Assembly: GCA_022820665.1 (NCBI GenBank)
Contig: JAJEFB010000026.1
Coordinates: forward strand, 62,001 to 126,000
Length of the DNA: 64,000 nucleotides
DNA from: Anaerolineae bacterium
GTDB lineage: Bacteria; Chloroflexota; Anaerolineae; Aggregatilineales; Phototrophicaceae
Direction of reading: 5' to 3'
Both the position numbers and the translations under genes were made by a program. This document shows, in pieces, positions 25,353 to 27,747 of this stretch. The notes beneath the pieces were generated by a model that was not told where the DNA came from, searched no databases, and saw only the letters and a list, made by a program, of their open reading frames with translations. Numbering within the stretch: the first letter of the stretch is position 1; the number at the start of each line of letters is the position of its first letter.

Positions 25353-26099
25353 CTATAGCAGATTCGGCGGGACAGCCAACTGCCGAAAGGCGGCTGCCGC
25401 CGCGTCCAGATGCGCTTTGCCCTCGCGCAAAGAGATTTGCAGATGCCCGGGAACCAGCGCGTCAAATTCGACTTTTTCCATCTTGAACATGCTGTCGGCA
25501 TAGGCGTCGATGCGGCAGTCGTGGATGTTCTGCCAGACGACCTTGCCGCCCCAGAACACCAGATCCGCGCCGAGCAAGTAAGTACGATCGCCGCCGTGCA
25601 TGAGAAAGCTGAGATGGCCATCGCAATGCCCCGGCGTCTCGAAAGTCTCCAGTTCCAGGTTGCCTACTTTGATCACGTCGCCCTCGACAAGCTCTACGTC
25701 GACCGGGCAGGGTTGTAGAAAAAAGTCTTCAGGGAAGAAGTTGGCCGCCTTGGCGACATCAAGGGCGACTGCTTTTTCGTCGGCATTGCGGATCACTGGC
25801 GCGGCAAATGCCGATGAATAGACCTCGACATCGAGCCGCTTTTGCGCTTCCGCCGCCGCGCCGATGTGATCGCAATGATAATGGGTCAGAATCAGCTTGC
25901 GGATTTTGCCGGGGTCGAGACCGTCGTCGCGGATGTGACCGAGGATGGTATCGAAGTCCCTATCCATGCCCATGCCGGGATCAACTAAAGCCAGTTCATC
26001 GCCGCTGTTGAGGACAAAAACGTGGCAGTCGAGCCTTCCTGAAAGCCCATAACCGAAATAGCCGCCGCCAACAACATGTAGATCGCTTGTCATTTTCAT
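25353..26099 (-). CDS. Metallo-beta-lactamase fold hydrolase
   Basis: A 248-residue metallo-hydrolase. The metal site is LTHYHCDHIG (H-x-H-x-D-H), with a further His in TPGHCDGH and the Asp in LGADLVFW, giving the two-zinc set of glyoxalase-II-like enzymes. There is no signal peptide. ATG 26099 is supported by GGAG eight bases upstream; the next ATG is two codons in. It stands alone between the LacI promoter and a transposable element. Substrate unknown; lactone or thioester hydrolysis is typical of the family. Confidence 0.88.
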   Translation of the reverse strand: MKMTSDLHVVGGGYFGYGLSGRLDCHVFVLNSGDELALVDPGMGMDRDFDTILGHIRDDGLDPGKIRKLILTHYHCDHIGAAAEAQKRLDVEVYSSAFAAPVIRNADEKAVALDVAKAANFFPEDFFLQPCPVDVELVEGDVIKVGNLELETFETPGHCDGHLSFLMHGGDRTYLLGADLVFWGGKVVWQNIHDCRIDAYADSMFKMEKVEFDALVPGHLQISLREGKAHLDAAAAAFRQLAVPPNLL

Positions 26100-26178
26100 A
26101 GGGCTTCTCCAAGGCTTTTGAGCACTCTTCAAATAGAACCAATTTGACGACTGTAGTCAAGCAGTTGGCTAGCTAGCG

Positions 26179-26196
26179 CAGGGCAATCGCTTCAAA
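26179..26196 (+). repeat. Left terminal inverted repeat
   Basis: CAGGGCAATCGCTTCAAA, identical to the complement of 26885-26902. Similarity continues weakly (TTGTTTTT versus ATCATTTT) for another eight bases. Confidence 0.85.
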
Positions 26197-26266
26197 TTGT
26201 TTTTTCACCACAAAGACACGAAGCGCCGCGTAGCTCTGTGTCCCCTACAGACCTCGATCAGCTGGT

Positions 26267-26298
26267 TGTGTCGAAGGGCTGTGTCGAAGGGCTGTGTC
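26267..26298 (+). repeat. 13-bp tandem repeat, about 2.5 copies
   Basis: TGTGTCGAAGGGC occurs twice in tandem (26267-26279, 26280-26292), followed by TGTGTC. It lies inside the transposable element near its left end. Confidence 0.7.
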
Positions 26299-26422
26299 TA
26301 CGCGCCCTACACGACCTACGCGTCCCTCAATGGTTGGAAAACCTCAACGCGCGAATATTGAGCCGCCCTCTATCAGAACATCTGTGCTATCATATCCGCA
26401 AGCACATCGAAGCGAGGACCCC

Positions 26423-26857
26423 ATGCCCAAAACCAGAAACTTCTCAGACCGTGAAAAACCCAACGCCATAGACCTGCTTGATATCCATAACGACATCAAC
26501 GCCGTCCACCTGCTTGCAGGCATCCATCATCGGTCGCCGCGCCGCCGACAAAACGCAACTTTGTCCGAAAAAAGTTGTTCTTTGTCCGCAAAACGGACAA
26601 TGTCGGAAAAACTTATAACCAAGAAACAACTGCCCGATAGCCCCGCGCCTACTCCCAACGCCGCCATTCAACGCCCAGCCAACCCGATCCGCCCAACCGC
26701 GCCCGCTTCATCGCCGGACTCTAAAAAATCCCCTCCGAAAAAAACAGACTGTATCTATACGGTGTCAATATACTTGCGCAATTTAGAGCTAGAACTAGGA
26801 CATTTCAAGGGTAGTCAAAGGGGGCATTTCAAGGGCAAAAGCCGTCATTTTGGATGA
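26423..26857 (+). CDS. Doubtful hypothetical protein inside the transposable element
   Basis: An open frame of 144 codons from ATG 26423, with GAGG at 26414-26417 as a possible ribosome binding site. The frame stays open upstream to 26294. The product is basic and rich in Pro, Ser and Lys, without hydrophobic core patterns, and resembles no transposase or other family known to me. It ends in HFKGSQRGHFKGKSRHFG, reflecting DNA repeats of CATTTCAAGGG. Probably a chance reading or a decayed passenger. Confidence 0.2.
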   Translation: MPKTRNFSDREKPNAIDLLDIHNDINAVHLLAGIHHRSPRRRQNATLSEKSCSLSAKRTMSEKLITKKQLPDSPAPTPNAAIQRPANPIRPTAPASSPDSKKSPPKKTDCIYTVSIYLRNLELELGHFKGSQRGHFKGKSRHFG

Positions 26858-26884
26858 TTTATGGGGCGATCGACACAAAATGAT

Positions 26885-26902
26885 TTTGAAGCGATTGCCC
26901 TG
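26885..26902 (-). repeat. Right terminal inverted repeat
   Basis: Perfect inverted copy of 26179-26196, followed at once by the second copy of the CTAGCTAGCG target duplication. Confidence 0.85.
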
Positions 26903-26976
26903 CTAGCTAGCGCGAATTCATTAGCGGGCTGACGTGTTATACTGGCGCGAAGATTTTCCACGGACGGGAGAGAGAT

Positions 26977-27747
26977 ATGATCTTGGGCATTGACCACATT
27001 GTCATCGCCGGACCGGACCTGGACAAGCTAACAACGGTCTTTGATTCGCATGGGTTCACTGTTGTCGGCGGCGGCAAACACCCGATCGGCTCCTATAACA
27101 ACTTGATCGGTTTGCAAGATGGCGCCTACATTGAACTGCTGTCCTTTTACGAAGACAGCCCCCAACATTATTGGTGGGATGCCGTTCACGAACGCGGCGG
27201 CGGTTTGATTGACTTCTGTATGGGGACGGACGATGTTCGCGCGGATTATGCGCTGTTCAAAGCGCAAGGCGTCGAAATGAGTCCGCTGGTCAGCTTGAGT
27301 CGCGTTCGCGTCGATGGCTATCAGCTTTCCTGGCTCAACAACGAGGTTTACGGTCCCTATCAAGGTTTAATCCCTTTTGTGATTGAAGACGAGACGCCGC
27401 GGGAAGAACGTGTGCCGAAGGAAAAAACTCATGAGAACGGTGTCAAGAGCATTGATACCATCACGCTTGCCGCGCGCGATCTGGAAGCGGCGCGACGGAT
27501 CATGGGAGCGGTATTGGGACACGCAGGCGAGCCGGTTAACGACGAAAACCTCAATGCCTCTGGCGTCGCCTTTCAAGCCGGTCCGCATCGACTGGAATAC
27601 CTGAGGCCGAATGACAACAGCAGCCCGCTTCATGGGCACATTGAAGCCAACATGCCAGTGCCATATCGAGTTCGCTTCAAGACCGACGGCGAATCCGGGA
27701 CTATCTCGCCAGAAGACGCTGCTGGCGTGAGGATTGCCCTGATCTAG
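26977..27747 (+). CDS. Glyoxalase-like (VOC) domain protein
   Basis: A 256-residue protein beginning ILGIDHIVIAGPDLDKL, the first beta-alpha-beta unit of the vicinal-oxygen-chelate fold, with a second unit at about residues 152-175 (IDTITLAARDLEAARRIMG). This two-module layout matches the Glyoxalase_3-type family, whose substrates are mostly unknown. Putative metal residues are His6 and Glu46 (AYIELLSF). The ribosome binding sequence GGGAGAGAG precedes ATG 26977. Its own promoter region borders the transposable element, which ends only 74 bp upstream. Confidence 0.85.
   Translation: MILGIDHIVIAGPDLDKLTTVFDSHGFTVVGGGKHPIGSYNNLIGLQDGAYIELLSFYEDSPQHYWWDAVHERGGGLIDFCMGTDDVRADYALFKAQGVEMSPLVSLSRVRVDGYQLSWLNNEVYGPYQGLIPFVIEDETPREERVPKEKTHENGVKSIDTITLAARDLEAARRIMGAVLGHAGEPVNDENLNASGVAFQAGPHRLEYLRPNDNSSPLHGHIEANMPVPYRVRFKTDGESGTISPEDAAGVRIALI

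Follow-up and report, generated by a model that had tools for sequence, protein, structure and literature searches.

We read the sequence between a metallo-beta-lactamase-fold gene and a VOC gene, within the 64,000-nucleotide stretch of DNA analyzed here (the window), as an ISAs1-type MITE that inserted between the two genes and whose interior is a decayed mobile insertion cassette with a helix-turn-helix gene. We give this reading a probability of roughly 0.9. The features on which it rests are listed in Table 1.

Table 1. Features of the element and its surroundings, with positions in the window
Feature	Position	Strand	Remark
Non-autonomous ISAs1-type element (MITE), 724 bp	26179..26902	.	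18-bp inverted ends without mismatch; flanking 10-bp repeat; numerous related copies in genome
Left target-site duplication CTAGCTAGCG	26169..26178	.	identical to 26903-26912
Right target-site duplication CTAGCTAGCG	26903..26912	.	identical to 26169-26178
Left inverted end CAGGGCAATCGCTTCAAA	26179..26196	+	
Right inverted end	26885..26902	-	exact reverse complement of left end
Promoter-like remnant GAACATCTGTGCTATCAT of captured gene: LexA-box-like site overlapping -10-like TATCAT	26376..26393	+	putative function
Hybrid 144-codon frame: N-terminal part of helix-turn-helix protein, then out-of-frame sequence	26423..26857	+	57% identical to G012 protein
Nested palindrome TTTGTCCG...CTTTGTCCG-CAAAA-CGGACAATGTCGG	26559..26611	+	inside captured reading frame
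Block in common with older ~735-bp subfamily	26674..26799	+	79% to consensus positions 271-392; order differs there (mosaic)
Metallo-beta-lactamase-fold gene, outside element	25353..26099	-	Pfam Lactamase_B, E 9.3e-23
VOC/glyoxalase-like gene, outside element	26977..27747	+	Pfam Glyoxalase_3, E 1.3e-32

An earlier note on this DNA had claimed a 724-bp element with perfect 18-bp inverted ends, a 10-bp target duplication, and no transposase, located less than 75 bp from the VOC gene start, and these claims were borne out. Both ends are exact, CTAGCTAGCG is present on both sides, and the interval given in that note, 26169-26912, comprises the element and both repeats. No transposase-like open reading frame was found inside the element, its 144-codon frame had no match in Pfam, and 74 bp separate the end of the element from the VOC ATG at 26977. 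When up to three mismatches are permitted, the 18-mer is expected 0.10 times in shuffled windows and was seen twice, exactly at the two ends, which excludes a chance origin of the pair. The inverted arms become 27 nt long at 89% identity once mismatches are allowed. Edge bases common to element and flank allow a 12-bp reading of the direct repeat (GCTAGCTAGCGC) as well; ends read as CAG...CTG give the 10-bp duplication, which is the most frequent size among family members (19 of 26 pairs). An RNA family search of the element region gave no match, and single-strand folding of the element, in which the inverted ends pair, had modest extra stability (z -2.5). Tandem GTGTCGAAGGGCTGTGTC-type repeats are found near the left end (window positions 26264-26302), and similar repeats occur in many genomes of the genus.

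The ends are multicopy in the host assembly (4.56 Mb, 53 contigs). The earlier note had proposed a genome search for them, and with up to two mismatches the 18-bp end occurs 127 times, compared with once for a reversed-pattern control. There are 72 stretches similar to the 724-bp element. Scoring of the sequence stretches taken around the listed ends yielded 26 end pairs with a matching direct repeat of 8-12 bp at no more than two mismatches (10 exact; 19 of 10 bp), a few of which may be nested or due to chance. The elements with paired ends span 247-841 bp. Two subfamilies are conspicuous: the close relatives of the window element, which share blocks of about 85-94% identity, and an older group about 735 bp long, with 15 copies that are 80-94% identical to the subfamily consensus. 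The nearest sister copies of the window element are about 93% identical to it, over the best-matching part only. Exact GAACATTTGTTC sites, which are LexA-box-like, recur in MITEs of the older subfamily (for example, at G000:C25:32447 and G000:C40:37905).

The ISAs1-family transposase with the same ends that the earlier note had suggested looking for was found in the host genome, where it is split, and complete in two congeners. The host match scored 297.9 bits in the HMM search (cut-off, 70). Its gene is near-complete and split across contig ends, and it may not be intact; repeated IS are usually split over contig ends in assemblies of this type. Taken together, the two halves account for a complete congener IS, to which they are 88-90% identical, and the ends of the host IS pieces have one to four mismatches to the MITE end. 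Two contigs start with the same IS end and have differing flanks, and therefore at least two IS copies are likely. The complete congener IS are L190 (1245 bp, with a 400-residue frame, ends CAGGGCAATCGCATCAAA, and a 10-bp duplication, AATCTGTGCC) and L186 (1234 bp, with a 9-bp duplication, AATTAGATG). The end of the window element differs from that of L190 at 1 of 18 positions, and its 10-bp duplication fits the sizes found in these partner IS. Of 31 genomes in the genus, only 6 had a transposase match, whereas MITE matches, some of them to short internal repeats only, were present in 25 of 41 relatives; many MITE copies may therefore be stranded.

Common ends would also be expected if the element were an ordinary deletion derivative of an ISAs1 IS, consisting of the IS ends and remnants of the transposase. 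However, nothing detectable is common to the MITE and either complete IS past the terminal 18-23 bp, and the interior matches a helix-turn-helix cassette instead. We regard a deletion derivative as extremely improbable.

Elements in congeners point to a decayed passenger gene as the interior of the element, which the earlier note had missed. Element positions 129-514 match L172, a 1078-bp element of congener G016, at 81% over 408 bp, and the first 41 bp of the window element match the L172 left end at 98% identity. In L172 the same ends enclose a gene of 219 codons that is intact and has both a plausible ribosome site and a promoter-like site. Because the L172 duplication has 2 mismatches in 10, the reading of L172 as a cassette leans on its ends and on two further elements with the same ends, L171 (G016; 1130 bp, gene broken) and L169 (G020; 965 bp, gene shortened). 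The latter two (L169:546-1510 and L171:482-1611) occupy a single orthologous site, share their 10-bp target, and have flanks that are 85-94% identical. One target occupied in two species indicates that this insertion predates the species split. These comparisons argue that L172-type elements are mobile insertion cassettes without a transposase and that the interior of the window element is the promoter and 5' part of a helix-turn-helix gene, internally deleted. The gene is intact in L172 but not in the window copy, where it is cut and frameshifted. The window copy appears to be a mosaic, decayed derivative because the promoter and 5' part are kept, most of the 3' half is lost, and a block of the older subfamily is fused to what is left.

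Free-standing intact versions of the gene are present in G012 and G041, with 75-86% identity to the G012 protein, and inverted ends were sought around these copies and not found. More distant homologues occur throughout the genus, including a 237-codon one in the host genome. Helix-turn-helix residues of the passenger protein (T-G...TL-WR) are invariant, and a C-terminal stretch that looks helical is conserved. The protein gave no match above the cut-off in Pfam, PHROG, or NCBIfam, only a weak helix-turn-helix resemblance, and no phage relative was found. G012 and G041 also have dozens of dispersed 5' fragments of the gene, about 350-450 bp long (L225-L244), around which no ISAs1 or other inverted ends were found.

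The similarity of the hybrid frame to the intact 221-aa G012 protein covers residues 1-109. It is conceivable that a hybrid frame of 144-185 codons is a working gene, in which case the element would be a living cassette for the spread of a truncated helix-turn-helix protein, such as a binder of the TTGTCCG palindrome. Six sister copies have the frame open, and in simulations with the observed substitutions stops were expected in 2.4 of the six copies and were absent from all of them in just 5.4% of runs; remnants of a promoter and a ribosome site are present as well. However, dN/dS among the six sister copies is mostly 0.6-1.0 (0.37-1.03 over all pairs), compared with about 0.5 for longer genes, and copies L081 and L141 are frameshifted. 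Furthermore, the second half of the hybrid sequence does not follow the reading frame of the intact gene, and the helix-turn-helix is cut, by an insert of about 100 bp in the sister copies or by a deletion in the window copy. A working gene is thus very unlikely. The hybrid frame probably evolves close to neutrally and is not a gene, with some room for weak selection because six open copies arise by random mutation about 5% of the time. A protein conserved across both MITE subfamilies was a separate candidate and was rejected, as the subfamilies differ in block order and in the frames in which the blocks are read.

Two sequence motifs in the captured DNA may be regulatory. The LexA-box-like sequence in the captured promoter is GAACATCTGTGC. 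The intact genes of L172, L245, L246, and L260 are preceded by a promoter-like site of the same position and sequence type, and a GAACATATGTTT site is located upstream of the lexA-like gene of the host genome. Exact GAACANNTGTTC palindromes occur at 19 places in the genome, compared with 6 for the control, many of them in the older-subfamily elements that were read. It is possible that the LexA-box-like sites are a regulatory site spread by the transposon.

The second motif, the nested TTGTCCG/CGGACAA palindrome, occurs at about 26 genomic places, most of them within element copies; the control gave none. It is also present in the gene copies of congeners. In diverged homologues the same stretch codes for a similar peptide (LSEK..SSD.KRTEN) from differently spaced DNA. 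At L166:816-869 the module is located between different inverted arms (CTGTAGTGGTCC...) and therefore occurs in more than one kind of repeat. The module is multicopy in G020, with eight copies of equal score, L165-L168 among them. Proteins may bind to the LexA-like box and the TTGTCCG palindrome. One could go further and propose that the intact ancestor was a transposase-less cassette that moved a DNA-damage-responsive helix-turn-helix regulator, promoted from the LexA box and with its own binding palindromes in the gene, and that the LexA-like boxes and TTGTCCG palindromes dispersed over the genome by its MITE descendants may titrate or rewire the regulator. We consider this extension unlikely.

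The earlier note had also suggested that the insertion may alter VOC expression. Its proximity to the VOC start makes it conceivable that the insertion changed expression of the VOC or metallo-beta-lactamase-fold gene by separating or adding promoter sequence, but the conserved upstream sequence of each neighbor is intact on its own side. The CGAATTCATT...TATACTGG stretch before the VOC gene, which is conserved in L144-L146, is entirely downstream of the insertion, and the TTGACT-17-TCTATT site before the metallo-beta-lactamase-fold gene is entirely on the opposite side. A promoter scan of the element revealed no promoter-like site pointing at the VOC gene. These results weigh against the suggestion, and an effect on either neighbor is improbable.

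The best named relatives of the host are Chloroflexota metagenome-assembled genomes, apparently sponge associated, judging from their isolate names. The earlier note had asked whether the site is empty in relatives. Three congeners of other species (L144, L145, and L146) keep the same gene pair without the element, with flanks about 84-89% identical. For the two empty sites that align most closely, the match to the window is interrupted at the boundaries of the duplication; the left-hand piece of L144 stops 9 bases earlier. The empty sites are 4 bases longer than the window with one duplication removed, a difference attributable to an ordinary indel at 84-89% identity. Thus, the insertion either is younger than the divergence from these species or has been lost in them. 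The perfect ends and duplication are consistent with a fairly young insertion, and the earlier description of the transposition as recent agrees with them and with the absence from congeners. However, "recent" has to be taken loosely: identity to the nearest sister copies reaches only about 93%, which is too low for a burst within the last few generations.

The multicopy ends, the partner transposase, and the empty site support the overall reading of a transposed non-autonomous ISAs1-type element that the earlier note had offered. In the mechanism that we propose from the anatomy, a transposase made elsewhere in the genome would recognize the CAGGGCAATCGCTTCAAA ends, and the element would have inserted between the divergent metallo-beta-lactamase-fold and VOC genes with duplication of 10 bp of target. 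Its interior would come from a mobile insertion cassette in which the same ends surrounded a helix-turn-helix gene with its own promoter, as in G016. An internal deletion would have removed most of the 3' half of the gene, with fusion to a block of the older MITE subfamily. The promoter, the 5' part of the gene, and the nested palindrome would be carried along as passenger DNA, and the protein is probably not under selection. The insertion appears to have spared the conserved sequence upstream of both neighbors and was probably close to neutral.

The kind of element, MITE or mobile insertion cassette, is already known; what is new is the gene origin of the interior and the documented path from cassette to MITE. 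A series from free-standing gene to ISAs1-bounded intact cassette to many decayed MITEs can be traced within one genus, which suggests that the interiors of bacterial MITEs can derive from captured host-type genes and not only from IS. Genome annotation should treat the open frames within such repeats with caution, as they are probably not genes. Should the box and the palindrome prove to bind proteins, the family would represent transposons that spread regulatory sites. A description of ISAs1 MITEs in sponge-type Chloroflexota was not found in the literature.

Rickettsia palindromic elements are palindromic repeats located within reading frames. The window palindrome is likewise inside a reading frame. 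However, it coincides with a protein stretch (LSEK..S..KRT) kept in diverged homologues, and an independent insertion is therefore not indicated.

Like the ISAs1 family IS (NCBIfam NF033564; L190 and L186), the window element has ends that start with CAG(A/G)GCAATCG and a duplication in the 9-10 bp range. Unlike L190 and L186, it has no transposase and no internal similarity to them, and it is 724 bp long rather than 1234-1245 bp. Mobile insertion cassettes and MITEs are IS derivatives that lack their own transposase and can be activated by a cognate one (PMC3129680). L172 resembles the mobile insertion cassettes so termed (PMC3129680) in that IS-type ends enclose an unrelated gene and no transposase, whereas most of the gene is gone from the window copy, which appears to be a derivative rather than a working cassette. 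The window family resembles prokaryotic MITEs as reviewed (PMC10969869) in its lack of a transposase, short inverted ends, direct repeats, and many copies. However, prokaryotic MITEs are usually shorter than 500 bp (PMC10969869), and many of the 247-841 bp copies are longer. In addition, the interior of the window family appears to be the remnant of a captured gene and not IS remnants.
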